A stretch of 64,000 nt of DNA from Methyloceanibacter stevinii (GTDB lineage Bacteria > Pseudomonadota > Alphaproteobacteria > Rhizobiales > Methyloligellaceae): contig NZ_LPWE01000012.1 of NCBI RefSeq assembly GCF_001723355.1, positions 124,001 to 188,000 on the forward strand. The letters run 5' to 3'. The stretch's first letter is position 1; every line of letters begins with the position of its first letter. Shown one piece after another: positions 40,919 to 59,462 of this stretch. A model generated the notes under the pieces. That model saw only the letters and a list, made by a program, of their open reading frames with translations, searched no databases and was not told the origin of the DNA. A program made the position numbers and the translations under genes.

Positions 40919-40983
40919 TTTGTCTCCCATAGCGGAGACATAGCCTTGCCTCCCCTCCCTGCCAAGCATGCTCATTCAACAGG

Positions 40984-42114
40984 TCAGGATGTTTGGCCGG
41001 ATGCAAGCTCCTGAAGGCCGAACCAGCTGTTGAGGACGAGCAGGCCCCGGTCGAGATTCAATGCGAACGTCTCGGCGCGCGCGGCCGAAATCGCCTCCCA
41101 GGTCTCGGCCCAGGCCGGCAAGGTCTCCGCGGTCAGCAAGCGTTGCGCGAGCTTCTCCTCCGCTCCCCTGAGCCCCGTCCCGGTGGCGCCGTAGTGCACC
41201 AGCCGTTCGATCAGCCCAAGTAGCAGCGCGAGGTAGAGTTCGAGCTGCTCCGTCTCGTTGACGCTCGCCAGCTTCTCGGCCTGGCGCTGCACCCGCGCAC
41301 CGTCCAGATCCGGCAGTGCCTCGAACGTGGCGACGATATCGTTGTAGAGCCCGATGCCCTCGCCGGTGACGAGTTCGAGCGCGCGCCGCACACTCCCCTG
41401 CGACAAGGCCATGGCCATGCGAAGCGTTTCCTCGTCGGCCTCGAGTCCGTCCCGCTCGAGCGCAGCCCGGACTGCCCCGGCGAGCGCCGGATCGTCCAGC
41501 GGAGACAGGCGTAAGGCGCGGGTCCGGGAGCGGATCGTCACCGGCAGCCGCCCTTCCGCGTTCGAAACCAGCAGGAACAGCGTGTTCGACGGCGGCTCTT
41601 CGAGCGCCTTCAACAGAGCGTTCGCGGCGTTCTGGTTGAGTTGGTCGGCCCGGTCCACGATCACGACGCGCCACGAGCCATCGCCGGCGGTGCTGCCGAG
41701 AAAACTGCGCAGCCGCCGCACTTCGTCGACGCTGATCACTTGCGAATAGCGCTTCGTCTTCTCCATCCACGTACGGCGGATGAGCAGCAGGTTGGGATGC
41801 GCCAAGCCGGACACTTTGCGAAAGATCGGGTGATCGGGTGCGACGTCCGCCGGCTCGCCGGGAATAAGATCGCCGGCCTCTGCGTGGGCGAGGATGGTGC
41901 GGGCCAAGCGATAGGCGAGCGTCGCCTTGCCAATGCCCTCGGGGCCTACCAGCAGCCAGGCGTGATGCAGGCGCCCGCTGCGAAGCGCCTCTTCGAACTC
42001 CTGCGCCGCCTCGTCGTGACCGAAGACGCGATCCACCTCGCGCGGGCTCGAGAACGGCTCCAGCCGATCGGGCTCGACGGGACCGGCGCTGGCCTTATTC
42101 GGTGCGGCACTCAT
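40984..42114 (-). CDS. holB: DNA polymerase III subunit delta'
   Basis: This 376-residue AAA+ clamp-loader subunit has a P-loop (LVGPEGIGKAT), a conserved ANALLKALEEPP segment and the SRTRALRL sensor region. It assembles with delta and tau/gamma to load the beta clamp. tmk lies 24 bp upstream and metG follows downstream, the standard tmk-holB-metG order. Confidence 0.93.
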   Translation of the reverse strand: MSAAPNKASAGPVEPDRLEPFSSPREVDRVFGHDEAAQEFEEALRSGRLHHAWLLVGPEGIGKATLAYRLARTILAHAEAGDLIPGEPADVAPDHPIFRKVSGLAHPNLLLIRRTWMEKTKRYSQVISVDEVRRLRSFLGSTAGDGSWRVVIVDRADQLNQNAANALLKALEEPPSNTLFLLVSNAEGRLPVTIRSRTRALRLSPLDDPALAGAVRAALERDGLEADEETLRMAMALSQGSVRRALELVTGEGIGLYNDIVATFEALPDLDGARVQRQAEKLASVNETEQLELYLALLLGLIERLVHYGATGTGLRGAEEKLAQRLLTAETLPAWAETWEAISAARAETFALNLDRGLLVLNSWFGLQELASGQTS

Positions 42115-42138
42115 GATGGACTGCTCAGGACGCCCCGA

Positions 42139-42786
42139 TTACGGATTGAGGCGCTGCAGGACCGTCTCCCAGACATCCTCGGCGACCATGGCTTCGGGCT
42201 GACTTGCGTCCACCACGACGCAGCGGCCCGGCTCTTCCTCCGCAATGTCCAAGAATCCACGCCGAATGCGCTCATGGCTCATGAGCTCCTGGCTTTCGAA
42301 ACGGTCGAGTTCCTGACCTTCGGCGCGCGCCGCGACGCGCGCAAGCCCCTCCTCGGCCGGAATGTCTAGAACAAACGTGATGTCGGGCATCACGGCACCG
42401 ACAGTGAGTTGCTCCAAGGCATTGATGAGCCCCCGCGGCACGCCGCCCGTCGACCCTTGGTAGGCCCGCGTCGAGTCGACGAACCGGTCGCAGATGACCC
42501 ACTGGCCCTGTTGCAGCGCGCCCTGGATCGCATTCTCGATGTGATCGGCACGTGCGACCGCAAACATGACGGACTCCGCCAGCGGGCCGAATTGCGCCAC
42601 TTGTCCGGACAGCAACACCTCACGGATGTCCTCCGCCGCCGGCGACCCGCCGGGTTCGCGCGTCACGAATACGGGCCGGCCGGAGCGCGACAGCCGCTCG
42701 GCAAGAATGTTGACCTGGGTCGACTTGCCGGAGCCCTCGCCGCCTTCGAAAGTAATGAAGCGTCCGATCTCGATGGCTTGCTGCAT
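42139..42786 (-). CDS. tmk: Thymidylate kinase
   Basis: This 215-residue kinase has the P-loop FEGGEGSGKST, the DR(F/Y) motif (VICDRFVDST) and the TREPGGSP motif. It phosphorylates dTMP to dTDP. It lies 26 bp downstream of the D,D-carboxypeptidase gene and directly before holB, so it is in the same transcript. Confidence 0.96.
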   Translation of the reverse strand: MQQAIEIGRFITFEGGEGSGKSTQVNILAERLSRSGRPVFVTREPGGSPAAEDIREVLLSGQVAQFGPLAESVMFAVARADHIENAIQGALQQGQWVICDRFVDSTRAYQGSTGGVPRGLINALEQLTVGAVMPDITFVLDIPAEEGLARVAARAEGQELDRFESQELMSHERIRRGFLDIAEEEPGRCVVVDASQPEAMVAEDVWETVLQRLNP

Positions 42787-42812
42787 GGTGGAAGGGGCTC
42801 GCGTACCCGGCG

Positions 42813-44009
42813 CTAGAGCAACCAGCCGAACGCAAGCACAAGCAGGGAATCGATGCCCCGCATGGCGAAGCCGCTGCTGTTGATGTCTTCGCCGGCATAG
42901 AGCGGGATCTCGTTGATCGCAGCCAGGTCGGCCGACTTCACTTTCAAGGTCGCGATCTGGTCGCCCTTCTTGATCGGTGCCTTGATGGGTCCCTCGTAGA
43001 TGATCTCACCCGAGACGGCACCCGTGGCGCTGGCCGGAAGGAGGAGATCGATCGCGCCGTCGCCGACCAGTGGCACGTAGTGCTTCTCACCGCCCCATAC
43101 CAATGCATCGCTGACCTGCTGCCCGTCTTCGAACAGCCGGAAGGGACGGAAGCTCTTGAAGCCCCACTCCAGCACCCGGCGGGACTCCTTCTCGCGATCG
43201 CCTTTGTTCTCGAGCCCCGTAAGAACGAGCACCAGCCGCTGGTCGCCGCGCTTGGCGCTCGACACGAGGCCATACCCGGCCTCCTGCGTGTAGCCGGTCT
43301 TCAGACCGTCGACACCAATATCGGCCCAAACGAGCGGGTTCCGGTTGCGGAAGGTGAACTTGTCCCGATAGCGGAACTCCTTCTGCGCGAAGTAGTGATA
43401 GTACTCGGGAAAGGTTTCGATGATGTGCTTGGAGAGCAGCGCCAGATCGCGCGCCGTCATCAGATGGCCTTCGGCAGGAAGCCCGGTCGGGTTCGCAAAG
43501 TTGGAGCCGGTCAGTCCTATTTGCTTCGCGTAGTCGTTCATCATCTTGACGAAGCCGCCCTCGGTCCCGCCGATCCCTTCGGCAAGGATGAGCGCCCCGT
43601 CGTTCGCCGACTGAACGGTGACGCCCTGGATCAGGTCGCTGACGGTGATCGGGCTACCGAGAGGCGCGAACATGGCGGCGGTTCCAGACGGCGCGCCGCC
43701 GGTTCGCCAAGCGTGCTCGCTCACGGTGAAGGTGTCGTCGAGCGTTATGCGCCCTGACTTGAGCTCGCGAAAGACCACGGCCAGCGTCATGAGCTTGCTC
43801 ATACTCGCGGGCGGAATTTGCTTATCGGCGTCCTTCTCGTAGAGGACGAGATCGGCGCCTGAATCCATCAGAATCCCGCTTTGGGCCTTGGTGGTGAATT
43901 CGTTGGTCTTCTTCGCCGCCGCAGAGGCAACGCCCGCGGCCAACGCCACGCCAAGCGCGCAGAATGCGCAGGCAACGGCAACTTTCGTCAATCTACGCAG
44001 AGAGCGCAC
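42813..44009 (-). CDS. D-alanyl-D-alanine carboxypeptidase (penicillin-binding protein)
   Basis: This 398-residue S11 peptidase has a signal peptide (about 1-31), the SxxK motif SMSK (69-72), SxN (SAN, 134-136) and KTG (237-239). The C-terminal PBP5_C-like beta domain is followed by a short hydrophobic end (SLLVLAFGWLL) that could act as membrane anchor. It trims the terminal D-Ala of peptidoglycan stem peptides. A separate promoter is likely in the 113-bp gap upstream, which carries a CtrA-like half-site. Confidence 0.94.
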   Translation of the reverse strand: MRSLRRLTKVAVACAFCALGVALAAGVASAAAKKTNEFTTKAQSGILMDSGADLVLYEKDADKQIPPASMSKLMTLAVVFRELKSGRITLDDTFTVSEHAWRTGGAPSGTAAMFAPLGSPITVSDLIQGVTVQSANDGALILAEGIGGTEGGFVKMMNDYAKQIGLTGSNFANPTGLPAEGHLMTARDLALLSKHIIETFPEYYHYFAQKEFRYRDKFTFRNRNPLVWADIGVDGLKTGYTQEAGYGLVSSAKRGDQRLVLVLTGLENKGDREKESRRVLEWGFKSFRPFRLFEDGQQVSDALVWGGEKHYVPLVGDGAIDLLLPASATGAVSGEIIYEGPIKAPIKKGDQIATLKVKSADLAAINEIPLYAGEDINSSGFAMRGIDSLLVLAFGWLL

Positions 44010-44083
44010 GCGATCACATCGTTCTTGAGGAATGGTGGTCTAACCGCCGCCAAAGACGGCCGCCTAGGCGCGGCCACTATCGA

Positions 44084-44091
44084 ATGGTTAA
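44084..44091 (-). promoter_or_regulatory. CtrA-like half-site upstream of the carboxypeptidase gene
   Basis: TTAACCAT on the minus strand lies about 75 bp before the D,D-carboxypeptidase start. It matches the second half of the CtrA box (TTAA-N7-TTAACCAT). The upstream TTAA half was not found at the right spacing, so binding is only a possibility. Confidence 0.25.
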
Positions 44092-44122
44092 TGCTAAAAA
44101 TCAACCGGGGACGGACCAACGC

Positions 44123-45220
44123 TCAGTTTTGCAAGATGATTTTGGCGCCCCGGTACCCTGCATCGGCAACGTCCAACAGTGCCGCCGCCGCGGTTATCCC
44201 ATCCACAAACGGCCCGACGCGGACGCGGTAATAGGTCTCGCCCTGTTCGGCGATCGGCGCGACTTCGACCGGTCCGACACCTGCGAGTGCGGTCCGCGCC
44301 CGTTGCGCGTTCGCGTGGTTCTTGAAGAATCCAGCCTGAATCATGGGGCCCTGAAGGTCTTCGGATGAAGACGGGCCAATGGCGCCGGTCACCGCCACGT
44401 CACCTACTCCGCCGCCACGAATAACCGTCGGCTCCGGAGTCGCCTCGGCCACGGCAACAATGGCCGAGCGGTCGGGCCGATCAGGCAACGGCGGCACCGG
44501 CGGAGGCCCAGGCGGCCCCACCGCGATCACAACTTCCGCCATGCCGTCGGGGTCGGTCGTCCCGGCATATTGCGAGTAGCCCCGTGTCGACAGATAGTCG
44601 CGCTCGAACGCATCGTCGCCGTCTAGACTCGCCTTGCGGAGATAGCGCACCCGCACATTGGCCGTGCCGGACCTTTTGAATCCGAGCACTTCGGCTGTGT
44701 GCCGGGAAAGATCGATCAGCCGCCCATCGCGAAACGGACCTCTGTCGTTCACGCGCACCACCGCGCTCAGGCCGTTGTCGATATTGGTGACCTTCACGTA
44801 GATGGGCAGCGGCAAGGTAGGATGAGCGGCCGACAACCGCTCCATATCGAAGATTTCGCCATTGGATGTTTTGCGGCCGTGAAACAGGTCGCCGTACCAG
44901 GACGCGACGCCCCTCTGATCGTAGCTGGGGTCTGCCGCCGGAACGTAGCGCACGCCTTCGATCTCGTAGGGGTCGCCGATCTTGAAATGACCGCCCCCTT
45001 TGGGTGCGGACTCGCCGATCTGGACGTACCGCTTCCCGAGGCCGGCGGATTCCATGCCCTCGGGCACCCCGTCAGGCCAAAGCCAGAGGACCGATACCGA
45101 AAGAAGAAGGAGAACAAACCACGCCCGTGCGTCAAAGACGCGTCGAGTCAGAGACTTAACGCGGCCGGAGCTGGGCTCAGGTCCGTCCGATGTCACCCCG
45201 TCCAATGATCCGCCCCCCAA
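44123..45220 (-). CDS. rlpA: Septal ring lytic transglycosylase RlpA family protein with SPOR domain
   Basis: This 365-residue envelope protein has an N-terminal membrane or signal segment (AWFVLLLLSVSVLW), a double-psi beta-barrel (GVASWYGDLFHGRKTSNGE, VNDRGPF, DLSRHTAEVLG) and a C-terminal SPOR domain (about 290-365, IQAGFFKNHANAQRAR). SPOR domains bind denuded glycan at the septum. No lipobox Cys is visible, so it is probably membrane-anchored. It heads the rlpA-dac-tmk-holB-metG group. Confidence 0.9.
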   Translation of the reverse strand: MGGGSLDGVTSDGPEPSSGRVKSLTRRVFDARAWFVLLLLSVSVLWLWPDGVPEGMESAGLGKRYVQIGESAPKGGGHFKIGDPYEIEGVRYVPAADPSYDQRGVASWYGDLFHGRKTSNGEIFDMERLSAAHPTLPLPIYVKVTNIDNGLSAVVRVNDRGPFRDGRLIDLSRHTAEVLGFKRSGTANVRVRYLRKASLDGDDAFERDYLSTRGYSQYAGTTDPDGMAEVVIAVGPPGPPPVPPLPDRPDRSAIVAVAEATPEPTVIRGGGVGDVAVTGAIGPSSSEDLQGPMIQAGFFKNHANAQRARTALAGVGPVEVAPIAEQGETYYRVRVGPFVDGITAAAALLDVADAGYRGAKIILQN

Positions 45221-45607
45221 AAGGGCTCAAGGAAGCCGCGCCGGAAGAGCTACGAACGCAGAACAAAGTGAACTCCTCCGGCGCACGTTCAATGTGAGCC
45301 CAACTCGGTTATCAAAGAATAAATGCGGCCCCTATTTGCAGACGCTCCGGTGGAAAGACTCTCCGGCGCATAAAATATGCCCCAGAATCAGGCCATTATA
45401 GCGCGGTCAAGCTGACAGCATCAGATTGTTAACCATAGCAAGACAATCCCGTGCCCCAACGGCCACAGAGTCTTTGAAATCACTCGGGAAACACCCTGCA
45501 AGCCTTGTCGCGCAAAGGTTAACTGGCTAACGTCCGGGGTGATGGGCGGGTGCTGCTGTCAGCATAGACTGACACCTCACCAAAGTAACAACCGAACGGA
45601 CGTACGA
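45221..45607. promoter_or_regulatory. Divergent intergenic region between rlpA and the Slam-like gene
   Basis: These 387 bases carry no credible gene. They are AT-richer than the neighbourhood and must contain promoters for rlpA (minus) and for the export cluster (plus). A TTAACCAT element is at 45429-45436 and a GTTAACTGGCTAAC partial direct repeat at about 45519-45532. Confidence 0.45.
45429..45436 (+). promoter_or_regulatory. CtrA-like half-site in the rlpA/Slam-like intergenic region
   Basis: TTAACCAT matches a CtrA half-box and lies about 170 bp before the Slam-like gene and about 210 bp before rlpA. A full TTAA-N7-TTAA box was not seen. Septal RlpA would be a sensible cell-cycle target, but the call is weak. 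Confidence 0.25.
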
Positions 45608-46947
45608 ATGGGTTCGTGGGCGAAGTTGGCGACAACCGCTGCGGCGGCGGTGTGTCTGGTCCTGGGTGTTCCCGGGATCGTGTCCGCCGCTGGGGTCTCC
45701 GAACCGCAGCGCGAGGCTATGCTTCAGCGCATGATCGCCAATCCGAGCGATCTCGATCTCGCATTCGAATACGCACAAGCCTCGTCCGATGCCGGCGACT
45801 ATGAAGGCGCGATTTCCGCCCTCGAGCGCATGCTCATCTACGCGCCCAACACGCCCCGCCTCCAGTTCGAGCTCGGCGTGCTCTACTACAAGCTCGGCGC
45901 CTATGAGGTCGCCCGCAGCTACTTCGAACAGGTGCTCCTCAATCCGAGCGTGCCGAACGAAATTGCCGACCAGGTTCGGCTCTATATCCAGCAGCTCGCC
46001 CTCGCCGCGGACCCGCCGCCCTTCTCCGCGTCGATTTTCAGCGCCATCCGCTGGGAGAGCAACGCCAACTTTGGCCCGGGCACCAACACGGTGACCTTGA
46101 ACGGCATCGACTTCACCCTGGGCGACCAGTCCGTCGGCCGCCCCGGCTGGAGCTGGTTGAACATCGGGACGCTGCATTACTCCTACGATCTGAAGAACCA
46201 GGGCGACCGGATCGAGTTCGACTTCCTGGCCTACTCGACGGTCTATTTCGACGACGAACTCTCGGACATCGATCTCGACTTCTTCGAGGTCACCCTCGGC
46301 CCGAGCTTCAACATGAAGCGCATCGGCTGGGACCAGACCCGGTTGTTTCTCTACGCGATCGGCGACCTGTCCTATCTCGGCTACGACTCGTATTTCTACG
46401 CACCGGGCGCAGGTATCCGGCTCTTGAGCTTTGCGGCGACGCAGAGCGTGCTCGATGCCCGCCTCGAAACGCGCTACCGCGACTTCCAGGACAACAGTGA
46501 ACTGCCCACCAATTCGCTGCGCACCGGCTTTCAGACCCGGCTCGGGGTGAACTACACCTACTACCTCACGCCCGGTCTCGTTCTGACAACCCAGGTTTAC
46601 GCGCAACGGGAGGCGGCCGACGCCGACTTCTACGCCAATACGGAAGTCGCGTTCTCGGCCGGGTTCGCCTACACCTTCGAGAACCCGCTGTGGCGTGCCG
46701 ACTACCCCCTGACTTGGCAACTGGGCGCGGGCGCATCCGGCGCGACTACGACGATCCCGATCCGACGATCGATCCCAACGAGTCCGAGCGGGACGATACG
46801 TGGTGGGCGCGGACGGCGGTGGTGGTCCCTGTCGCGGAGACCTGGGCGCTCGTGCCGCAAGTCGAGTATCGCGACCAGCAGTCCAACTACGACCTGCGGA
46901 CATTCGACGACCTGACGACGATGCTTGGCATCCAGAAGAGGTTCTAG
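45608..46947 (+). CDS. Slam-like TPR and outer-membrane beta-barrel protein, one apparent frameshift near 46735
   Basis: With one base added near 46735 the frame encodes about 446 residues ending in QKRF, with the terminal Phe expected of outer-membrane barrels; as written it would end in an Arg/Ser-rich tail at 46915. A signal peptide (1-27, ending VSAAG) is followed by TPR-like helices (about 30-135: DLAFEYAQASSDAGDYEGAI, FELGVLYYKLGAYEVARSYF) and a ~290-residue region of amphipathic strands rich in aromatic residues. This layout matches surface lipoprotein assembly modifiers (Slam, type XI secretion), which export cargo across the outer membrane. The first FecR-type gene begins one base after its stop. 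The Slam assignment is by architecture and context. Confidence 0.7.
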
Positions 46948-46948
46948 C

Positions 46949-48603
46949 GTGGGTGCCGTACGCGCAGTCGTAGCGTTCATGGCACTCGGCGCGGCGATTC
47001 TCGGTGCGCCAACGCACGCCGCCGCGAACAAGGTGGGCGTGGCGGCCGCCGTCAATCCGGACGCCTTTTCCGGCGGCAAGGAAATCCGCATCGGCAAATC
47101 GATCTTCTACAATGAGAGGATCAGCACCGACGCCAACGGCGTGGTTCAGGTTCTGCTCGTGGACGGCTCTACCTTCACCGTCGGCAAGAACTCCAACGTC
47201 GTCATCGACAAGTTCGTCTACGACCCCAACAAGAAGACCGGCGAGATCGTCACGTCCTTCTCGAAGGGCTCGATGCGCTTCATCGGCGGCAAGATCTCGA
47301 AGAATCCCGGCGGCGTGACCGTCAACACGCCGGACGGCAGCCTGGCCATCCGCGGCGGCATGGCCCAGGGCGCGATTACCTCGCGCGGCACCATCTTCTC
47401 CTTCCTTTTCGGCAACGAGATGGTCTTCAAGAGCAAGAGCGGGAAGGTCTACACGGTTTACCAGCCCGGCTACACGCTCGACCTGAGCAGCGGGGTGCCG
47501 ACGATCCGGCCGACAACCGCGGAAGACATTCAGACGATCCTGGCCAGCCTATCCAACGGCAACACGAATACGGCCGGCGTGACCACGGACAACCAGCCCC
47601 CGCCGCAGAACTTCGTGATCCTGCCGCAAGACTTCCAGCAGATGATCATCGACGCCACCGGTACGCGGATCAGCGACGAAATCCTGCAGCAAATACTCGC
47701 GTTGCAGGAGACGACTATCGAGCAGCTCGAGGAGACGAGCATCGACTTCACGATCGGCGGCTATGGCAGCGGCATCGCGCACGACGACTACGGCAATTAC
47801 ACCACCGTCGGGAGCAAGTACTCGACCGACTTCGATTACAATGAGGACTCCGACGTCATCACGTTGACGCTGCACAACGTCGAAGGGTCTCCGCAACCAT
47901 CCGGACCAAATCTCGGCATCTTCAAGTTCAGCCCGGTCTCCAACAACAACTGGACCCTGTCCAGCCTCCGGCTCATCGACCACAGCGGAAACCCATTTTA
48001 CGTGACCGACCCGACCGGTGGGGCAGAACGGCGGACGCAAGTGATGTGCCCGGGTTGCAACTTCATCGAATGGGGCGAGTTCCACGCGGACTATAAGTAC
48101 AGCTCTTACCCGAACGACCCGTACGCCATGCAGGAAGACATCAACAATGGCTGGTGGGTTGGCGGCGCGGTCACCGCGTTCAAGGACCTGCCGACGACCG
48201 GCACGGCGACCTACTCCGGAACGGCCCGGGGCACGATCCTCGACTACAATCTGGACGGCGCGCAGGTCGAAGGCCGCGGCGATCTCGACATGAGCTGGAG
48301 CTTCGCCAAACGCTCGGGCCAGCTCTCGATCTCCGACTTCAAAGCCATTTCGTCGCCCTTGCAGAATTACACCCCGCCGACGCTGAACGTCTCCGGCACG
48401 ATGTCCACACCGGGAAGCGTGAATCGCTTCTCCGGCGACATCAGCGGCATGGCCGGACAGATTCCCGTTTCGGGCGGCGCCTTCGGCTCCTTCGTGACCG
48501 ACGGACGGCGCCCGGCTGCCGGAGTCATTGGCAACTGGGGCGCAAAGACATGAACAACTACTACCGTGCAACGGGCATTTTTGGTGCTGCTGCAAAGCAT
48601 TAG
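46949..48603 (+). CDS. Exported FecR-domain protein with C-terminal barrel-like domain (paralogue 1), one apparent frameshift near 48548
   Basis: GTG 46949 follows the Slam-like stop by one base, with AGAAGAGG upstream. A signal peptide (1-25, THAAA) precedes a FecR-like domain (about 45-140: IGKSIFYNERI, VLLVDGSTFTVG, AIRGGM). A middle region contains a helical stretch, then a C-terminal domain with Cys367/Cys370 (CPGCNFIEWG), GWW and SFAKRSG. Adding one base in GCAAAGACATG extends the end to NNYYRATGIFG and a stop at 48601-48603 (about 551 residues), which aligns with the next paralogue. No lipobox is seen. FecR domains usually sense siderophore uptake in the periplasm; here no sigma factor or anti-sigma helix is nearby, so the domain probably has another role. 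Confidence 0.72.
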
Positions 48604-48741
48604 AGCGCTTCAGCTAAAGTGGTGCCGCAGGTAGTACCGGCCCGTCCAACTGGCGCGATTGGACAATGAAACCCGGCAAAACTGTGCTATATCAATAATC
48701 GGAATTTCTCTTCTTTACGGCTTTTAGAAGAGGCTTGAGGG

Positions 48742-51735
48742 ATGGTCAGAAACGGTCACTTGACGCTGCCACGCAGCGCCGTGGCGATCGCGCTGCTTTG
48801 TAGCGCGGGCGTTGGCCTTGCCCTGTCCGCCCCCGCCTATGCCGCCAAGGTCGGCGTCGCAGCGGCCGTTAATCCGGACGCCTTTTCGTCGCTCTCCGGC
48901 GTGCCCAACAAGCAGCTGAATATCGGCAAGTCGATCTTCTACAACGAGCGCATCGAGACCACGGCGCAAGGGCTCGTGCAGGTGCTGCTGGTGGACGGCT
49001 CGACCTTCACGGTCGGCCCCAACTCCAACCTCGTCATCGACAAGTTCGTCTACGACCCGAACAAGAAGACGGGCGAGTTGGTCGCGACCTTCTCCAAGGG
49101 CTCCATGCGCTTCATCGGCGGCAAGCTGTCGAAGAACGCGGGCGGCGTGAAGGTGAACACGCCGTCGGGCGCGCTCGCCATTCGCGGCGGCATGTTCCAG
49201 GGCAACACGCAGAAGAAGATCTATTCCTTCCTCTACGGCCACTCTATGTCGATGCAAGGCCGGAACGGGCGAACGCAAACGGTCTATCAGCCCGGCTACA
49301 CGCTCGATCTTTCGCGCGGCGGCAGCGGCACCGTCCGCCCCACCACGGCCGAGGATACGGCTGTCTTTGCGAGAGCACTGACCAGTCGCGGCGGTTCGAC
49401 TGCATCGAACAGCGAAAACGGCGGTCAAAGCAATGGTGGTCAAGGCGGATCCGACGGCGGATCCGAAGGCGGCGGGCAGCAGCAGGCCGGAACGAACCAG
49501 CTATCTCAGTCAGTCAGCATTCAGGACATGGTTTCCAGTGCGACTTCAGAGGCTATCAACAACGAAATCGAAAAACAGATCGAAGAACAGAAGACGCAAG
49601 ATACTCCGCCGCCGACCAACACGCCGGCGAAGACACCAACGCCAACCACCACAACTACTCCGCCTGCCCCGCCGCCTGAGATCGACGCACGCATCATCCA
49701 GACGGCGCCGAACGGCATCGCTACCGGCGATTTCAACACAACCTTCCAGGTCATCGACAGACGTCTTGTCGCCGACCTTCCGTCCGTCGATCCGGAGGGC
49801 TGCGAGGGGCAGAATTGCGAAGTCGACGTTCAGTCTGACTTCAGCTCGGACTTCGCAGAACTAGACGTCAACAATCTCGGCGGCCGGCCGTCGCTGCAGT
49901 TCGATTTCCCGGAGACACTTCAGTGCGTCAACGGCTTCTGTCCCGTCACGGATGCGAAGGTGATCGTCGACGGCGAGACGGTGGAATATTTCGGCGGGGC
50001 GGTCATCAAGCCAGGTTTCTTTGCATATCAGGTGGCCCGAGGCGAGAACGCCAACGAAGAGCTGGGGCCGCTCAACGCTCTCGACGAATCCCTTCTCATC
50101 TTCGGCGGCAAGAAGCACAATTTCCAAGCTCCCAGCGGCAAGATTTATGTTTTTGCGCTCACGAGCGATGTGATCCAGCAGAGCGCGGCTCCGTTCGCAT
50201 CCGCCATGTCGACCGATTACTCGACGCCCGACGATGTGATCGGCGTCGTCACACCGCTACTGGCCAAGGAGCAGAATACCGGCGCCCCTGACGATCAGAG
50301 CCGGCCGGTTTGGCTACAATCGACCTTTGCCCTCGGTACCGGCGAGTCCAGCCGTCAGTCCTTCGTCAATATCGCGCTGGGCGAATGGTCTCCGGAAGGT
50401 GGCATTCAAGGATCTCGCAGGGGTGGCTCGGACCTCGACGGCGAGGATTATAGTTTCACGGGCGACATCGCGAGTCTCGAAGGCCCCGATGGCGGTCACT
50501 TCCTCGGTGCCGACGATGCGCTACCGAATGCCGTCCTGACCCTCGGCGGCCCCGGCACCGAAAACGCCGGCCGCGACACGCCGCTCAATGGCGACACAAG
50601 CCCAATTGAGCAGTCGGGGGCCACTTATCACGTCGCCGCTGGGACCGAAGCCATCGAGGGGAGCGAAACGTCGTCCGGCACCTTCACTGGCTTTGCGGCC
50701 GGCTTCTCGCAACGGGCCGGCAACAACGAGTTGCGCTCGCTCGTCAACAATTCGGCGGACGAAGTCGTTTTGGAGTTGGATTCGCCCACCAACACGCTCA
50801 CAGCGTCGGTCAATGTGGGAGATGGTCGGCTGCTTCAGAATCCCAGATACAGCTACCAATTCGGAGGTGAAGGCAATTCGGCCCTTATCAGCGACAATGT
50901 CTTTGGAGCAATTGAAACACCGGGCGAGTCGGAAATCGGCGAGACAACGTTGGAGCTTGTCCCGACCATCATAACCAAGACTTTCCTCAAGGGCACGCCG
51001 TGGGAGACCACGAAGACTTACGAAATCGACGTGCCTACTCTGGTCGACCATGACTACACGCCGGATGTGGAGGGCTATATCGTCAGCGCGGATGCCTTGG
51101 GCGCAAACGAGGTGCTGTTCGCTGGACAAACGGTGACGAACCCCGCGGACCCTGAAGGTCCACTCGTCCAGAGGCGCGCCTTCTGCCAGGACTGCGACTT
51201 CATCAAATGGGGCGCTTGGGGCACGCGCTCGCGCTATACCGATCACTCGGGCAAGCAGGTCACCGAGGATACCCATCTTGGCTGGTGGATTGCGGGCGAT
51301 GTTGTCCCAGAAGAGAATATTGATAGGCTCCAGGAACTCCAAGCAACGGCACTTTACGAAGGTGACGCGATCGGCACCGTCGCCAAGTTCAAGAACGGGA
51401 CTTGGAACCAGTCTGTCGCCAGGGGGGACATGACCCTCGACTGGAAGTTCGCCAAACGTAGCGGCGATTTCTCAATCAAGAACTTCGACAACCGGAACTT
51501 CGGCGGTAAGCTCGTAAATTTGCCGGGAACGTCGGGATTCAGCGGCATCGTCGGCAAACTCAACACTAACAATGCAGGTAGGTCGATCGTCGGCTCCGCG
51601 AGTGGCTCCTTTGTCGGGTTCCGAGGGTTGGACAAGACCCCAAAGGGCGTAATCGGGAACTTCGACGTGCACCAGGCCAACGACAAGTGGCGCGCCAACG
51701 GTATCTTCGGCGGCACGCAGCGTATCAATCGCTGA
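48742..51735 (+). CDS. Large exported FecR-domain protein with C-terminal barrel-like domain (paralogue 2)
   Basis: This 997-residue protein has a signal peptide (1-34, APAYA), a FecR-like domain (about 55-155) very close to paralogue 1, a Gly/Ser/Gln-rich linker then a Pro/Thr-rich linker (about 210-310), a long acidic beta-rich middle, and a C-terminal domain (about 810-997) with Cys815/Cys818 (CQDCDFIKWG), GWW, KFAKRSG and the end GNF...RANGIFGG. The last domain matches paralogue 1 and recalls the 8-strand barrel of TbpB/HphA-type Slam cargo. It is low in Lys/Arg and rich in Asp/Glu/Thr, like surface or extracellular proteins. The 138-bp gap upstream is AT-rich and may hold a separate promoter. 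Function unknown. Confidence 0.72.
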   Translation: MVRNGHLTLPRSAVAIALLCSAGVGLALSAPAYAAKVGVAAAVNPDAFSSLSGVPNKQLNIGKSIFYNERIETTAQGLVQVLLVDGSTFTVGPNSNLVIDKFVYDPNKKTGELVATFSKGSMRFIGGKLSKNAGGVKVNTPSGALAIRGGMFQGNTQKKIYSFLYGHSMSMQGRNGRTQTVYQPGYTLDLSRGGSGTVRPTTAEDTAVFARALTSRGGSTASNSENGGQSNGGQGGSDGGSEGGGQQQAGTNQLSQSVSIQDMVSSATSEAINNEIEKQIEEQKTQDTPPPTNTPAKTPTPTTTTTPPAPPPEIDARIIQTAPNGIATGDFNTTFQVIDRRLVADLPSVDPEGCEGQNCEVDVQSDFSSDFAELDVNNLGGRPSLQFDFPETLQCVNGFCPVTDAKVIVDGETVEYFGGAVIKPGFFAYQVARGENANEELGPLNALDESLLIFGGKKHNFQAPSGKIYVFALTSDVIQQSAAPFASAMSTDYSTPDDVIGVVTPLLAKEQNTGAPDDQSRPVWLQSTFALGTGESSRQSFVNIALGEWSPEGGIQGSRRGGSDLDGEDYSFTGDIASLEGPDGGHFLGADDALPNAVLTLGGPGTENAGRDTPLNGDTSPIEQSGATYHVAAGTEAIEGSETSSGTFTGFAAGFSQRAGNNELRSLVNNSADEVVLELDSPTNTLTASVNVGDGRLLQNPRYSYQFGGEGNSALISDNVFGAIETPGESEIGETTLELVPTIITKTFLKGTPWETTKTYEIDVPTLVDHDYTPDVEGYIVSADALGANEVLFAGQTVTNPADPEGPLVQRRAFCQDCDFIKWGAWGTRSRYTDHSGKQVTEDTHLGWWIAGDVVPEENIDRLQELQATALYEGDAIGTVAKFKNGTWNQSVARGDMTLDWKFAKRSGDFSIKNFDNRNFGGKLVNLPGTSGFSGIVGKLNTNNAGRSIVGSASGSFVGFRGLDKTPKGVIGNFDVHQANDKWRANGIFGGTQRINR

Positions 51736-51980
51736 GTCTACCCTTCTGAACGCCCTCCCACGCGCCCTTCCCGACTGCTGACAGCCACCTCCGCACCCCC
51801 CAAAAAGCGTCGTTTGAGCGTTTTCTTCGCCACATTTCGGCGCCCTATTCCGCTGCGTCTCGGAAGTTTTGGCGGTTTGGCGAAAAGCTTGCCCTGCCTT
51901 TTTCTGTCCCCACATGACCGGCTTGCCAACGCCTTGCGCGGCCCACGGCATTCGACACCAACGGGACGGGACAGGTCTTC

Positions 51981-52911
51981 ATGCTCGCTTCGATTAGCCT
52001 CACACCGAGGGCGACCGCGATTGTCGCAAGCTCGGTTCTCTCGGTCCTGCCCCTATCCGGTATGGACGCCACCGCAGAAGCCGCCGATCGCGTCGGCGTC
52101 GCTTCCGCCGTCACACCGAAAGCCACCAGCACGCCGCCAGGCGCGGGCACGCGGACCCTCAAGATCGGGAAGTCGGTCTTCTACAACGAACGGATCACCA
52201 CGTCGGACTCCGGCGTCGTGCAGGTGCTTCTGGTCGACGGTTCCACCTTCACCGTCGGCCCCCGCTCGAGCCTCCTCATCGACAAGTTCGTCTACAACCC
52301 GCACAAGGCACGGGCGAGATGACCGCCACGCTCTCGAAGGGCGCCCTGCGCTTTGTCGGCGGGAAGCTCTCGAAGCAGGAGCCCGCCGTGAAGGTCAAGC
52401 GCCCGCCGGCGAGCTGACCGTGCGCGGCGGCATCTTCCAGGGCATCGTGAACAGCTCCAACCAGGCGGTCTTCGCCTTCGTCTTCGGCGACTATCTGGCG
52501 CTGAACCGCAAAGGACGCCGCTACACCATCAAGCAGAGCGGCAACTTGTTCGCCATCGGTAATTCGGGCCCGCCCATCATCCGGCGCACCACCCAGACGG
52601 ATACCAATCTCATCCTGGCCGCGATCTCCGGCGGCACCGCCGCCAAGGTCTACAAGACGAAGGGGAACCCTTGGCCGTTCTACTACGGCATCCAGCCGAC
52701 CGGCCGTTTTCCGGATAAGCCGTTCGTCCGCGACCAGTTCTACGACGCCCGCCCGATCAAGCTGCACCGCGTTCCGGAGCCGAAGGTGCGCGTGCCTGAC
52801 GTCCACCGGCCGCACACGCCCCCCACCCCTCCCGTACGCGTGCCCAAACCGCCTAGCGTGACGCAGACGCCGCTCTATACCTCTCCCGGGTACACCTGCG
52901 CGAACTGCTAA
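51981..52911 (+). CDS. Short exported FecR-domain protein (paralogue 3), two apparent frameshifts near 52309 and 52400
   Basis: The protein starts at ATG 51981 with a signal peptide (to about AEAAD) and a FecR-like domain close to the two upstream paralogues (IGKSVFYNERI, VLLVDGSTFTVG). As written the frame stops at 52322; adding one base near 52309 and one near 52400 gives a continuous product of about 310 residues through GELTVRGGIFQG to the stop at 52909-52911. It lacks the CxxC/GWW barrel-like domain and ends in a Pro/Val/His-rich tail with a final CANC. It may be a periplasmic partner or an incomplete paralogue. The two lesions match the window-wide single-base pattern, but in this non-essential gene true decay is harder to exclude. 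Confidence 0.68.
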
Positions 52912-52958
52912 GCAGCGCTCCCCGAGCCACGAATCTCCCTCTCTTGGCCGATGACGGC

Positions 52959-52991
52959 GTGTCATGGTCGCGTGTCATTTCCGGGTGTCAT
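52959..52991 (+). repeat. Three GTGTCAT direct repeats with 13-bp period
   Basis: GTGTCAT occurs at 52959, 52972 and 52985, each 13 bases apart, just after paralogue 3 and before the next stem-loop. The spacers differ. This could be a regulator-binding array or chance in a short intergenic segment. Confidence 0.4.
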
Positions 52992-53014
52992 GCGGACCCT
53001 TTAAGGTCTCCCCG

Positions 53015-53043
53015 CCCGTCCCCATTTTCAGGGGACGGGTTTG
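53015..53043 (+). terminator. Intrinsic terminator after the FecR cluster
   Basis: CCCGTCCCC and GGGGACGGG form a perfect 9-bp stem around ATTTTCA, followed by TTT. It is the best terminator candidate in the window and would end the FecR cluster transcript 37 bp before the next start codon. Confidence 0.65.
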
Positions 53044-53079
53044 ACCCTTCCTGCCAAGCCGGCCTTCCCGGGAGTTCCG

Positions 53080-53922
53080 ATGTTGTTTCATCACGCCTCA
53101 CCTAAGTTCTTGTCACGCACCACGACCCCTCGCCTTGCGCATGTCCTTTTGCTCGCAGGGCTGGGACTTGCCGTCGCGGCCGCAATCGTCTTCTTCGCGC
53201 CGCGCGTCGCCAGCGCCGAACCCACCGACATCACCGTTCGCGTGCTGAGCAAGGACGCCAAGTTCGTTGGCTCCAGCATGGGCGGCGCGCGCGTGATCGT
53301 GCGGGACGCCGACACCGGAAAGATCCTGGCCGAGGGCGTGACCGAAGGCGGCACGGGCGACACCGGCCGCATCATGCATGAGGACGGCGGACGCCGCGCG
53401 ACGCTCTCAAGCGAGGGCGCAGCCAAGTTCGACGCCACCATCGATATCGAGGTGCCTCGCCTGGTCGAGGTCGAGGTGTTCGGTCCCCTCGCCCAGCGCC
53501 AAAGCGCGAACCGCGTGACCGTCACCCAATGGGTGGTGCCTGGAAAAGACATCACCGGCGGCGATGGCTGGCGCGTCGAGCTGCCGGGCTACGTGGTTGA
53601 CGTGCTCGACCCGCCCACGCATGTGAAGCTTGCCGGAACGACCGACAAGGTCGATCTGCGCGCCAATGTCAGCCTGATGTGTGGCTGCCCCATCACGCCG
53701 GGCGGCTTGTGGGACGCGGACGAACTCGAAGTCAAAGCGCTCGTCACCCATAACGGCGAGAAGCTCGCGCCGATCGACCTTGCCTTTGGCGGCGAGGCGA
53801 GCCAATTCGCCGGCAGCGTGCCGGTGACGGCGCCGGGCCTCTACGACGTGACCGTCTATGCGCACAATCCGCGCACGGGCAATACCGGGCTCGACCGCAC
53901 GACCTTTATCGTCGCCAAATAG
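53080..53922 (+). CDS. Exported protein of unknown function, 280 residues
   Basis: ATG 53080 follows GGGAG. The N-terminus has a basic segment then a hydrophobic helix (VLLLAGLGLAVAAAIVFFAP) and a likely signal cleavage after VASA. The mature part looks like two or more beta-sandwich domains (GARVIVRDADTGKILAEGVT; GLYDVTVYAHNPRTGNTG), with a Cys pair in MCGCPITPGG. It is probably periplasmic. The first domain resembles carboxypeptidase-regulatory-like folds, but no specific family was recognised. It follows the FecR cluster after a terminator, so it is likely a separate unit. Confidence 0.6.
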   Translation: MLFHHASPKFLSRTTTPRLAHVLLLAGLGLAVAAAIVFFAPRVASAEPTDITVRVLSKDAKFVGSSMGGARVIVRDADTGKILAEGVTEGGTGDTGRIMHEDGGRRATLSSEGAAKFDATIDIEVPRLVEVEVFGPLAQRQSANRVTVTQWVVPGKDITGGDGWRVELPGYVVDVLDPPTHVKLAGTTDKVDLRANVSLMCGCPITPGGLWDADELEVKALVTHNGEKLAPIDLAFGGEASQFAGSVPVTAPGLYDVTVYAHNPRTGNTGLDRTTFIVAK

Positions 53923-54219
53923 GATCGCTCCATCGCTCTCCGCAAAGTGCGATGAGCAGACGCGCGCGGCCTTGCCCGAAACGTGCGGCCCCTATCCGAA
54001 GCCCCGCATTGTCCCGCCGCTCTTGTTGTGCGCTGCCGCAAACCCCAAATAAAGGCTCCCCACCCGAGCCGTCGCCAGCGGCTTGACCTGTCGCCGTCCC
54101 CCGGCTTTGCTCTGGATAATAGCTTTCGCGGTCGAAATTGAAGGCCGACGATATGCGAGGCGGCGGCATACGAATGCGGCCGGAACTGAAAACGACCGAA
54201 GTTCGAAACGAGACTGTGA

Positions 54220-54627
54220 ATGCGTGATCCCAAGTCCGACCCAACCGCGCGGATGTTCGCCGAGGCCTGCGCGATGCTCAAACAGGCCGAGCAACTCCAG
54301 CGGCAGTTTTTCGGGCCGTCGAGTGGCACCAGCAGCGCCTGCTGGGAACCGCCGGTCGATATTTTCGAGACCGAGCGCGAGGTGACCGTAATCACGGCGC
54401 TGCCGGGGGTCCGCCCCGAGGCCGTCCGGGCCGAGATCGAAGGCACGACGTTGATCGTCACGGGCGTCCGGGCCATTCCGGCCGCGGGGCGCGGCGCCAA
54501 TATCGTCCGGCTCGAGATTCCCTACGGGCGATTCGAGAGGCGCATCGCCATTTCCAGCCGTTTGAGGCTCATCGGCAAAGAACTCGAAAATGGATGTCTG
54601 AAACTGATCTTTACGAAGGCAGGCTAA
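54220..54627 (+). CDS. Hsp20/alpha-crystallin family small heat shock protein
   Basis: This 135-residue protein has an alpha-crystallin domain from about 40 to 133 (PVDIFETEREVTVITALPGV, then GRFERRIAI and LENGCLKLIF). The N-terminal arm is helical and Gln rich. Small heat shock proteins hold unfolded proteins in a refoldable state. A Lon protease gene starts 22 bp downstream, so chaperone and protease are co-expressed. The 297-bp region upstream has no clear gene and probably holds a stress-responsive promoter, which I could not define. Confidence 0.87.
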   Translation: MRDPKSDPTARMFAEACAMLKQAEQLQRQFFGPSSGTSSACWEPPVDIFETEREVTVITALPGVRPEAVRAEIEGTTLIVTGVRAIPAAGRGANIVRLEIPYGRFERRIAISSRLRLIGKELENGCLKLIFTKAG

Positions 54628-54649
54628 CCCACTCACTGAAGTGCACATC

Positions 54650-57124
54650 ATGAATGAGCAAGACCAAAACCTGACCACCGAGAGTCTGCAGAAGACCGAG
54701 GAGACCACCGAGTCCCAGACCACCACGGGACAGGAAGAGTCGGCCTTTCCCGAGCTGCCGAACGATGCGGTCATTCTGCTGCCGACGCGCAACGCGGTGC
54801 TGTTTCCGGGCGTGGTCGCCCCCCTGATGGTTGGGCGTCCCCAGACCGTCGCCGGCGCGCAAGCGGCTGCACAAGCGGGCAAGCCCGTCGGCGTGCTGCT
54901 GCAGAGCGACCCGAGCGCCGACGCGCCGGGCCCCGACCAGTTGAACCGTGTCGGCACCATTGCCGAGATCATGCGCTATGTGACGTCGCCCGACGGCGCC
55001 CATCACCTCGTCGTGCGCGGCATGAACCGCTTCAAGGTTCTGGAGATCCTCGACGGATACCCGTTCCTTGCGGCGCGGATCGAGGAAATCGGCGGATTGG
55101 AAGTGTTCTCAACCGAGCTTGCGGCCCGGGTCCATCAGCTGCGCGAACGTGCGCGTGAGGCCCTGTCGCTCCTACCCAATGCGCCGGACGAACTCGGCGG
55201 TGCCCTGGAGCAGATCGAGTCGCCCTCCATGCTGGCCGACTTCATTGCCAACGTCATGGATATCAGCCCGCCGGAGAAGCAGGGCATCCTCGAGACATTC
55301 GACGTGTCCGACCGCATCGACAAGGTGCTGCGCGAACTCGTGCAGCAGATCGAGGTATTGCGCCTGTCGAAGCAAATCGGCGAGCAGACGCAGGAGTCCC
55401 TGTCCGGGCGCCAGCGCGAACACATCCTGCGCGAGCAGCTTCGCCAGATCCAAAAGGAGCTTGGCGAAGGCGAGGACGGCGAGGCCGAGATCGCCGAGCT
55501 GCGCGAGGCCATCGACAAGGCCGAAATGTCCGAGGAAGCGGAGACGCAGGCCAAGAAAGAACTTCGCCGCCTGGAGCGCATGCCCGAGGCGTCAGCCGAG
55601 CACGGCATGATCCGGACGTATCTCGATTGGCTGATCGAGTTGCCTTGGTCGAAGCTCTCCGAGGAGACGATCGACATTGCCGAGGCGCGCCGGATCCTCG
55701 ATGAGGATCACTACGGTCTGCCGAAGGTGAAACAGCGGATCCTGGAATATCTTGCGGTCCGCAAGCTCAACCCCGATGGCAACAGCCCGATCCTGTGCTT
55801 CGTCGGCCCGCCCGGCGTCGGCAAGACCTCGCTCGGCCAGTCGATCGCCCGCGCCATGGGCCGTCAGTTCGGGCGAATCAGCCTCGGCGGCGTGCATGAC
55901 GAAGCGGAAATCCGCGGTCACCGGCGCACCTATGTCGGCGCCCTGCCCGGCAATATCGTGCAGGCGCTGCGCAAGGCCGAGACGCGCAATCCCGTCTTCA
56001 TGCTCGATGAGATGGACAAGCTCAGCGCCAGCTTCCACGGCGACCCGTCCGCGGCGCTGCTCGAGGTCCTGGATCCGGCGCAGAACAGCACGTTCCGCGA
56101 CAACTATCTGGGTGTCCCGTTCGACCTGTCGAAGGTGATGTTCATCGGCACCGCGAACGTGCTCGACCAGATTCCGGCGCCGCTCCGCGACCGCATGGAG
56201 GTCATCGAGATCCCCGGCTACACCGAGGACGAGAAAGTCGAGATCGCCAAGCGCTACCTGGTCAAGCGCCAGCTGGAGGCGAGCGGTCTCAGCCCGGAGC
56301 AGTGCGAGATCACCGAAGAGGCGCTGCGCACGATCATCGACGGTTACACCCGCGAAGCGGGTGTCCGCAATCTCGAGCGCGAGGTCGGCGCCGTCTGCCG
56401 CCACGTGGCCATGCAGATCGCCGAAGGCGGCCAGTCGCGCATGCGCATCGACGTGGACGACCTTCACGGCATCCTGGGCGCCCGCAAGGTCGACAACGAG
56501 GTCGCCATGCGGACATCCGTGCCCGGCGTCGCCACAGGGCTCGCCTGGACGCCGACGGGTGGCGATATCCTCTTCATCGAGTGCACCAAAGTGCCAGGCA
56601 AGGGCCGGCTCATCCTGACCGGCCAGCTCGGAGACGTCATGAAGGAAAGCGCGCAAGCCGCTCTATCTCTTCTGAAAGTCCGAGCGGGACATCTTGGCAT
56701 CGAGCAGAGTGTTTTCGATACGTCGGACATCCATCTGCACGTCCCGGCAGGCGCCATTCCCAAGGACGGGCCGAGCGCGGGCGTGGCCATGTTCATCGCC
56801 CTCACCTCGCTCTTTACGGGGCGCACCGTACGCAGCGACATCGCCATGACCGGCGAAATCTCGCTGCGCGGCCTCGTGCTGCCGATCGGCGGGGTGAAGA
56901 ACAAGGTGCTGGCCGCGGTGCGCGCCGGGATAAAGACCGTGATGCTGCCCGAACGCAATCGCCGGGACTTCGAGGATATTCCGGAAGCCGCGCGCGAGGC
57001 GGTCAAGTTCGTCTGGATGTCGACGGTGGACGATGCCCTGGCCGCGGCCCTGAGCCCGCCGGAGGTACCCGCCGACAGCCCCAACGACCTTTCCGACGAT
57101 CAGCGCCGGCTGGCCAGCGGCTAG
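54650..57124 (+). CDS. lon: ATP-dependent protease La (Lon)
   Basis: This Lon protease of about 824 residues has an N-terminal substrate domain (ILLPTRNAVLFPGVVAPLMV), a coiled-coil region, an AAA+ domain with Walker A (GPPGVGKTSLG) and Walker B (VFMLDEMDKL), and a proteolytic domain with the catalytic Ser in PKDGPSAG and Lys in GGVKNKVLAA. The start at ATG 54650 is chosen over GTG 54641. Pairing with Hsp20 suggests a stress-specific Lon; many alphaproteobacteria carry another Lon next to clp genes, which is not in this window. Confidence 0.93.
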   Translation: MNEQDQNLTTESLQKTEETTESQTTTGQEESAFPELPNDAVILLPTRNAVLFPGVVAPLMVGRPQTVAGAQAAAQAGKPVGVLLQSDPSADAPGPDQLNRVGTIAEIMRYVTSPDGAHHLVVRGMNRFKVLEILDGYPFLAARIEEIGGLEVFSTELAARVHQLRERAREALSLLPNAPDELGGALEQIESPSMLADFIANVMDISPPEKQGILETFDVSDRIDKVLRELVQQIEVLRLSKQIGEQTQESLSGRQREHILREQLRQIQKELGEGEDGEAEIAELREAIDKAEMSEEAETQAKKELRRLERMPEASAEHGMIRTYLDWLIELPWSKLSEETIDIAEARRILDEDHYGLPKVKQRILEYLAVRKLNPDGNSPILCFVGPPGVGKTSLGQSIARAMGRQFGRISLGGVHDEAEIRGHRRTYVGALPGNIVQALRKAETRNPVFMLDEMDKLSASFHGDPSAALLEVLDPAQNSTFRDNYLGVPFDLSKVMFIGTANVLDQIPAPLRDRMEVIEIPGYTEDEKVEIAKRYLVKRQLEASGLSPEQCEITEEALRTIIDGYTREAGVRNLEREVGAVCRHVAMQIAEGGQSRMRIDVDDLHGILGARKVDNEVAMRTSVPGVATGLAWTPTGGDILFIECTKVPGKGRLILTGQLGDVMKESAQAALSLLKVRAGHLGIEQSVFDTSDIHLHVPAGAIPKDGPSAGVAMFIALTSLFTGRTVRSDIAMTGEISLRGLVLPIGGVKNKVLAAVRAGIKTVMLPERNRRDFEDIPEAAREAVKFVWMSTVDDALAAALSPPEVPADSPNDLSDDQRRLASG

Positions 57125-57185
57125 CCGCCACGAGCCTGGGTTGAGGTCACAACTGCTTCCTTTAGGGGCAGGTTGGCCGTATGAT

Positions 57186-57204
57186 CCCCCCAACTCCTGG
57201 GGGG
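57186..57204 (+). promoter_or_regulatory. Stem-loop covering the ribosome-binding site of the small gene at 57209
   Basis: CCCCCC and GGGGGG pair in a 6-bp stem around AACTCCT. The G arm is the only Shine-Dalgarno-like sequence before ATG 57209, 4 bases away. Folding would hide the ribosome-binding site, so translational control is possible. Confidence 0.4.
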
Positions 57205-57208
57205 TCCC

Positions 57209-57400
57209 ATGCGGTTCCTATTTGGCTTCATATTGGGCGTTGCGCTGACGGTCGTGGCCGCGTTCGTCATGGATCAGCGCGAACAGCAGGTCGAAAAGCG
57301 CGTCGTCAACTGGGACGTCGTGAACGAGAAAGTCGGCGCGGCCACGAAGGACGCGCAGGAGGTCTGGTCCGACTTCACCAGCGAGATGACCGGCCCGTAA
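57209..57400 (+). CDS. Small membrane protein, 63 residues
   Basis: A single N-terminal hydrophobic helix (LFGFILGVALTVVAAFVM) is followed by a charged helix (QREQQVEKRVVNWDVVNEKV). No family was recognised. It lies 84 bp after lon on the same strand, and its ribosome-binding site lies in a predicted stem-loop. Codon use and a start near a plausible ribosome-binding site support it as a gene. Confidence 0.6.
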   Translation: MRFLFGFILGVALTVVAAFVMDQREQQVEKRVVNWDVVNEKVGAATKDAQEVWSDFTSEMTGP

Positions 57401-57420
57401 AACGATTCCGCCTCAACGCG

Positions 57421-57918: not shown

Positions 57919-57938
57919 CTCGACAGCTCCTGGCCTCG

Positions 57939-58877: not shown

Positions 58878-59023
58878 GCGCGCCTCCTCGTCGGACCGTC
58901 ATAGCAAATTTGCAGGTCTAGGAGGCTGCGTTGATACGGCACCCGGCCAAGCGCAGGGCGAGCGGAGTGGACGGCGGGGAAAACGGACTAGGCTAGCGTC
59001 CGATCCAAAGCGCATCCGCCGGC

Positions 59024-59248: not shown

Positions 59249-59462
59249 CTGCATGCTCCTTGGAGACGAGAAAACGTCTTGCCTTATCGGCGGTTCACGC
59301 GCGCTGCTGTTGCTCTGTAGCAAGCTGAAGCCCGAACAGTTTCAGCCGCGATGCGCCTCTAGGCAGACCTCAGGCGTGCGATATCTGCACTACACGTGCG
59401 CATCGCCACGAACACGCGCTAGTTTTGCGCCTCTTCAGAAGCGCGGCGCGTTGGTGCGCGCC

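Follow-up and report, generated by a model that had tools for sequence, protein, structure and literature searches.

A probable type XI (Slam-like) secretion unit with FecR-headed cargo in Methyloceanibacter stevinii and related bacteria

Does a type XI secretion system (T11SS) serve proteins that carry a FecR-type domain at their head? This question is raised by a four-gene locus of Methyloceanibacter stevinii, whose genes all lie on the + strand of a 64,000-nucleotide stretch of contig NZ_LPWE01000012.1 (hereafter the window, to which all coordinates refer) in a genome of 3.2 Mb. An original prediction, made from the letters of the window, had proposed a Slam-like export locus in which an outer-membrane barrel protein is followed by two, possibly three, exported cargo proteins. 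Our analysis agrees with the proposal in its main lines: we consider it very likely that these genes form a secretion unit of type XI (Slam/DUF560) with FecR-headed cargo. The Slam-like assignment was borne out by the modelled fold and the profile relationships of the exporter; as to the cargo, two proteins have both the FecR head and the C-terminal tail, and the third has the head only.

The first gene (45608..46947, +) encodes the proposed exporter, a Slam/T11SS-type outer-membrane protein with a signal peptide (judged by eye), TPR repeats and a barrel with a C-terminal Phe. We aligned 70 of its 80 orthologues and modelled the intact orthologue of Methyloceanibacter methanicus (L052) with AlphaFold. 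The model had a mean predicted local distance difference test (pLDDT) value of 90.6 and showed six helices in the TPR part followed by 14 long strands, as expected of a Slam-like protein, which ruled out an 8- or 12-strand porin. Among the matches listed, its closest structural neighbours were CymA, OmpG and FadL, which we take to be 14-strand barrels. Published Slams are described as TPR proteins with a predicted 14-strand barrel (PMC5449769). No solved Slam structure was among the matches listed in the two fold searches with the barrel, and a sequence search of the PDB with the 70-barrel alignment gave no match at 1e-4; the same search with another barrel alignment gave matches to TPR parts only, among the matches listed.

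The family placement of the exporter was settled by profile-profile comparison with hhalign, because this favored PF04575 over PgaA. The 70-barrel family aligned with ten PF04575 proteins of other genomes at a probability of 100 (E 3.9e-38) over 375 columns, reaching the final Phe. By contrast, comparison with four PgaA proteins gave a probability of 7.5 percent (E 0.0047). The PF04575 Slam set itself reached 86.7 percent against PgaA, and the two families are not wholly separate. As judged from these profiles, the exporter belongs with the PF04575 Slam/T11SS proteins and not with PgaA; within this known family it is divergent. This bears directly on whether the barrel protein instead belongs to the polysaccharide secretins (PgaA, BcsC, PelB), with the FecR proteins as its periplasmic helpers. 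Such secretins share the TPR-plus-barrel architecture, and the top Foldseek matches by E-value were BcsC and PelBC, at TM-scores near 0.4. However, the 14 strands of the orthologue model, the Slam-substrate fold in the cargo (below) and a neighborhood with no polysaccharide synthase among the genes scanned all speak against a secretin. Together with the profile result, for which PgaA was the secretin compared and on which we rejected a PgaA-type protein, they leave this reading with hardly any probability.

Features of the C-terminus were also shared across the family. The final Phe was found in 75/80 barrels, and an SN pair about 20 residues from the C-terminus, which is near-invariant in the PF04575 set too, in 72/80. 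In the window, the ending RF is read in a C-terminal frame (46690..46947, +) with a weak SlipAM match (E 0.013), reached past a frameshift near 46733 that the original prediction had not foreseen, although the TPR-plus-barrel protein ending in Phe was as it had described. Pfam models recognized the family unevenly: TPR_9 matched 70/70 barrels, SlipAM 16/70 at E<=0.01 (best 3e-8) and TPR_Slam three of 70. In the hidden Markov model search for PF04575 that was suggested along with the prediction, the window fragment scored 15.5 bits against a cut-off of 22; for comparison, L031 scored 18 and Stenotrophomonas koreensis 33.7.

The cargo genes follow directly. Cargo 1 (46949..48603, +) begins with a GTG at 46949, one base past the stop of the barrel gene, exactly as predicted, and comprises a signal peptide (by eye), a FecR-type head (47030..47551, +; PF04773), a linker and a TbpB/NHBA-like C-terminal domain (48023..48603, +) that opens with a CxxC motif (CPGC), the fold of this domain being taken from the orthologue. 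Cargo 2 (48742..51735, +) is intact at 997 residues, with a FecR-type head (48847..49368, +; PF04773), a Pro/Thr/Gln-rich linker, a variable middle and a TbpB/NHBA-like C-terminal domain (51160..51732, +). Cargo 3 (51981..52911, +) is a third FecR-headed exported protein that lacks the C-terminal barrel. The Pfam FecR family (PF04773) exceeded its cut-off in the first two cargo and scored weakly in the third, and the matches in cargo 1 and 2 were the only two found in the entire genome. The shared C-terminal domain that had been foreseen was present in cargo 1 and 2, with the RATGIFG end of cargo 1 readable only in a post-frameshift frame, whereas cargo 3 gave no hint of this domain, a difference that the original prediction had not noticed. 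Short FecR-headed proteins without a C-terminal barrel were likewise seen at L063, L064, L065, L069, L071 and L083.

To characterize the tail we used 57 sequences, 53/70 from the main loci and four from further genomes. At E<=0.01 these matched NCBIfam slam_lipo (45), FHBP_C (37) and TbpB_B_D (19), mostly weakly, and a PDB profile search with the tail had fHbp, NHBA (GNA2132), TbpB and LbpB among its matches. An AlphaFold model of M. methanicus (L052) cargo 1, built from a 61-row alignment, had a pLDDT of 81.6, with residues ~210-305 mostly disordered. Its tail was a small barrel, as had been predicted, and resembled the TbpB C-lobe (Z 15.7, root-mean-square deviation [rmsd] 4.4, 202 residues) and NHBA (Z 14.3, rmsd 2.4, 145 of 146 residues), with HpuA and fHbp close behind. 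The head of the same model matched the FecR-type anti-sigma protein 4m0n (Z 15.3, rmsd 2.5, 136 residues) and the PupR signalling domain (Z 14.8, rmsd 3.0, 137 residues), in line with the FecR-like N-terminus originally noticed. All 70 head-plus-tail cargo contained the pattern C-x(1-2)-C-x-F/Y-xx-W/F-G, in which the C-x(1-2)-C motif is a possible metal or disulfide site.

What precedes the head differs from the usual FecR arrangement. No anti-sigma family was matched when cargo 1 and 2 were scanned with Pfam, and a putative signal peptide (by eye) directly precedes FecR. Neither a sigma factor nor a TonB receptor was seen among the Pfam-named neighbors at 39365-58877. The absence of these usual FecR partners had been part of the original prediction, and we rejected a classical FecR sigma regulator, as a putative signal peptide replaces the anti-sigma part and the expected neighbors are missing from that region. 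An A-x-A pattern near the head junction occurred in 69/93 ORFs (open reading frames) with a FecR head, the signal peptides again being judged by eye, and a lipobox at the head junction in 0/93. Lipoprotein cargo were also rejected, the two lipobox-like hits among these 93 ORFs lying well upstream of the head junction and before the likely start.

The homology and the folds were accompanied by a gene order that was itself conserved. Our locus set consisted of the best 80 of 85 relatives from a search of the genome collection that used the barrel profile only, and included Methyloceanibacter, Rhizobium, Agrobacterium, Mesorhizobium, Roseibium, Stappia, Aureimonas, Pleomorphomonas and others, as well as one Stenotrophomonas. 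A FecR head started <=600 nt behind the barrel gene in 79/80 loci, and head and tail stood within one ORF behind the barrel gene in 68/80. Related loci in other Hyphomicrobiales, which the original prediction had thought possible, are therefore numerous, and they show a type XI system in many members of the order, including plant-associated Rhizobium and Agrobacterium. FecR proteins without the tail were found on either side of the barrel gene, as a 284-residue ORF upstream of it at L046 and a 257-residue ORF behind it at L048. We also drew 199 genomes evenly across the order; with a tail threshold of E<=1e-10, the barrel occurred in 39 of them and the tail in 20, and every one of the 25 tail matches in these genomes lay on the same strand as a barrel gene and 1070-4216 nt downstream of it.

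The pairing was also found outside the order. In a survey of 240 genomes of the class, the tail (E<=1e-5) was present in 23, own genome counted, and stretches were obtained for 14/27 tail places outside the own genome. Three of these (L220, L223 and L225) were left out of the count because of contig ends or too short a stretch. Where upstream DNA sufficed, the barrel gene stood directly before the cargo in 8/11 tail places outside the order. Four more distant loci read from a phylum-wide barrel search (L226-L229) had a FecR head beside the barrel in 4/4, and a collection of 72,556 plasmid records held the barrel in 3. The system extends well beyond Hyphomicrobiales, which the original prediction had not seen. 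At one of the phylum-wide loci, L226 (G641:C1:60000-78000, another class of the phylum), there were two genes of the Slam type, one for a SlipAM protein scoring 86 bits and the other for a Slam-like protein below the cut-off; three FecR proteins at this locus were above their cut-off, and a TbpB_B_D match was below its own.

Several observations weigh against a T11SS with FecR-headed cargo. The window barrel and most of its relatives fall under the Pfam SlipAM cut-off, and 54/70 have no match at E<=0.01. One locus of the 80, L071, is alone in having no head behind the barrel. Of the 39 barrel-bearing genomes in the order survey, 19 had no tail match at 1e-10, those of L046 and L048 (above) among them. 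At three of the 11 tail places in other alphaproteobacteria (L213, L217 and L221), head-plus-tail cargo stood without an upstream barrel gene in the DNA examined, and at L226-L229 the tail was absent from three loci and weak in L226. Finally, 3/4 of the window genes themselves are frameshifted; of the four, only cargo 2, the longest gene, is intact.

These frameshifts raise the question of whether the locus is decaying in this M. stevinii strain, the breaks being real and the system lost here. Compared with the close relative G014, whose barrel protein was 99 percent identical across the first 376 residues, the window is short of one base near 46733 in the barrel gene, has lost one near 48543 in cargo 1 and carries two one-base losses in cargo 3, near 52309 and 52400. 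We also counted one-base gaps over the aligning parts, about 1-49358 and 51279-64000, and found 28 in the window vs. 15 in G014, some of which were paired alignment artefacts; on this count the window assembly looks noisy. Because such gaps lie in both the window and G014, and many lie beyond the locus, the frameshifts are probably assembly errors rather than decay. Three broken genes out of four are what decay would produce, but the spread of gaps over the whole window, the intactness of cargo 2 and the unbroken orthologues that G014, G004 and further relatives carry make it improbable. In two other genomes, G007 and G023, the barrel gene also changes frame.

How might such a unit work? Here we infer export of the cargo, recognition of the tail and a role for the head. 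With a putative signal peptide and no lipobox, the cargo would cross the inner membrane by Sec. In the periplasm, the TbpB/NHBA-like C-terminal small barrel would be recognized by the TPR and 14-strand barrel protein, which would then pass the unfolded cargo through the outer membrane. In vitro, Slam1 is reported to pass TbpB only when the latter is unfolded (PMC9090332). Because the cargo are not lipidated, they would be either released or retained at the surface. The FecR-type head may serve as a constant adaptor, and the middle of cargo 2 as a variable and probably surface-exposed part. We suggest that the head most likely binds a partner and is not a sigma regulator; in many relatives that partner may be a neighboring CHASE2 adenylate cyclase. 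That the head is more than a passenger is pointed to by its being the constant part of the protein and by the company of CHASE2 proteins. Mean column identity was 48 percent in the head vs. 28 percent in the tail, in alignments of different row sets, and in cargo 2 compared with G014 the first 200 residues were 96-99 percent identical, the middle was replaced or absent and the last 200 residues were 57-79 percent identical. Among close strains, cargo 2 looks like a mosaic of a constant head, a swapped middle and a moderately altered tail.

The CHASE2 neighbor, which the original prediction had not seen, was encountered often. In 32/80 loci (for example L061, L088, L115, L178 and L179) the third gene, immediately after the cargo and of the same orientation, was an ORF resembling a CHASE2 adenylate cyclase; such an ORF lay anywhere in the locus DNA examined in 37/80. 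Many of the CHASE2-linked loci are close Rhizobium relatives, and these counts are not independent events. Pfam confirmed CHASE2 plus a cyclase domain in 6/6 ORFs scanned, and the Shinella plasmid p1 and Paracoccus aminophilus pAMI5 are annotated with the order barrel, FecR protein and cyclase. We estimate that such a neighborhood would arise by chance in close to one percent of cases, because 38/41 genomes (our own plus 40 relatives) hold between one and three CHASE2 matches each. That of the window genome consists of two neighboring pieces, probably of a single gene, and lies ~160 kb from the locus; therefore, the link is not required everywhere. The CHASE2 neighbor hints at a signalling role, and it points to a tie between T11SS and second-messenger signalling.

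Similar company has been described elsewhere. In Sinorhizobium meliloti, the FecR protein smc02177 belongs to the cyaD1 region, where plant signals drive cyclic AMP (cAMP) (PMC5498481, PMC7529298), and the BiofilmReg operon of Burkholderia has FecR beside a CHASE2 protein (PMC5192318). These pairs share with our loci a FecR protein beside a CHASE2 enzyme, but the available text of these reports mentions no Slam gene (PMC5498481, PMC7529298, PMC5192318). According to the same source, smc02177 is required for infection control and dispensable for plant-signal perception (PMC5498481), a result that speaks against a simple sensor role in S. meliloti. The S. meliloti record in our set (L177) has a 295-residue FecR ORF with no C-terminal barrel beside a CHASE2-cyclase-like ORF; we do not equate this ORF with smc02177. 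NsrA of S. meliloti, which has an outer-membrane barrel, is described as acting ahead of CHASE2 cyclases in a signalling pathway (PMC7529298, PMC13001267). With its barrel placed at residues 600-1200, NsrA far exceeds the locus exporter in size, and we claim no kinship.

Such a tie could go further than a partner for an exported protein. The Slam barrel might thread out only the tail, with the FecR head staying in the periplasm as a retention plug that docks on the inner-membrane CHASE2 cyclase, so that an outside ligand would be turned into cAMP. The cyclase behind the cargo in 32/80 loci, the FecR-CHASE2 pairs on record and the constancy of the head beside a replaced middle are in keeping with such a trans-outer-membrane sensor. 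So is a weak likeness of the head to LapA-type retention modules: NF033682 matched 15/22 cargo at E<=0.01, with the bit scores examined under the family cut-off (20.5 for cargo 1 and 16.9 for cargo 2 vs. 50), and the head matched PDB 5ix9 (E 6.8e-6), which we take to be the N-terminal retention region of a Marinomonas adhesin. As 5ix9 was absent among the matches listed in both cargo fold searches, this lead is a sequence match alone. Known T11SS cargo, however, are thought to be transported whole, and the distant CHASE2 match of the window genome and the S. meliloti phenotype (PMC5498481) also argue against a sensor. We regard it as unlikely. If true, it would be a second logic for FecR cell-surface signalling, besides that of TonB receptor plus FecR plus sigma factor.

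A plainer alternative is that the cargo are ordinary soluble ligand binders, such as a hemophilin-like haemophore or metal binder, that are secreted whole, with the head merely a fold domain and CHASE2 tied in by operon only. The haemophore 6om5 was among the Foldseek matches, the invariant C-x(1-2)-C pattern could bind metal, and TXISS-1B cargo are predicted to be soluble, non-lipidated, single-barrel proteins (PMC8406197). Yet no TonB receptor adjoins the window locus, and the head is better conserved than the tail (in alignments of different row sets). We hold this alternative to be possible but doubtful. The reading we favor is a T11SS unit whose FecR head most likely binds a partner, and the loci with a CHASE2 cyclase make it testable where the FecR domain sits in the exported protein, and whether a secretion pore can act as a sensor.

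How, then, does the locus compare with known systems? The nearest is Slam/T11SS (TXISS, DUF560, PF04575), and especially TXISS-1B, with HrpB/HrpC and hemophilin, where a TPR plus 14-strand exporter likewise stands beside non-lipidated cargo with a single TbpB barrel. Compared with TXISS-1B, our cargo add the FecR head, a long linker, the variable middle (cargo 2) and the CxxC before the tail; in addition, the window locus has no TonB receptor, a CHASE2 cyclase adjoins many loci and the exporter is mostly under the Pfam cut-off. The ten T11SS cargo groups described in PMC12282271 have the C-terminal barrel as their uniting domain, as here, but none of the group names includes FecR, and FecR is absent from the main text of that paper. 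Cluster 3 T11SS (marine microbes, Rhodobacteraceae among them) resembles our locus in being alphaproteobacterial with several adjacent exported genes, whereas its partners are DUF1194 proteins and the C-barrel is described as rare there (PMC12282271). FecR/PupR sigma-regulation proteins have the FecR fold in common with our cargo, which carry a putative signal peptide in place of the cytoplasmic anti-sigma part, and FecR/PupR systems have a sigma factor and TonB receptor as neighbors, whereas none lies beside the window locus. The weak, below-cut-off profile likeness to LapA-type adhesins of type I secretion is confined to the head, since our cargo end in a TbpB-type barrel and not in an RTX tail. 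A LapG-type peptidase (Peptidase_C93) is encoded at G000:C12:363820-364284, away from the locus, and a link between the two is not established.

We hold with considerable confidence that these proteins represent a class of type XI cargo that is new. A link between FecR and Slam (DUF560) was not found in the open-licence literature, and as far as our searches of that literature reach, neither the cargo architecture nor its operon with a CHASE2 cyclase is in print. Most of the exporters are below the Pfam cut-off, so a DUF560-based network may miss them. The experimentally verified T11SS exporters are described as all coming from one animal-associated cluster (PMC12282271), and the present loci add to this young secretion system a class of cargo in which a signalling-type domain is fused to the exported protein.

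The surroundings of the locus in the window are mostly house-keeping. Between 39365 and 58877, Pfam named metG, holB, tmk, a D,D-carboxypeptidase, an RlpA-type DPBB/SPOR protein, lon and a formamidase. A promoter scan found no sigma-70 site, and predicted terminators were not above chance. For the neighboring ORFs at 53041, 54220 and 57421, our scans gave no match. The first of these (53041-53922) encodes an exported-looking protein of 293 residues without a Pfam or NCBIfam match, and relatives of it are seemingly present, as judged by eye, at the same region of L034 and L036.

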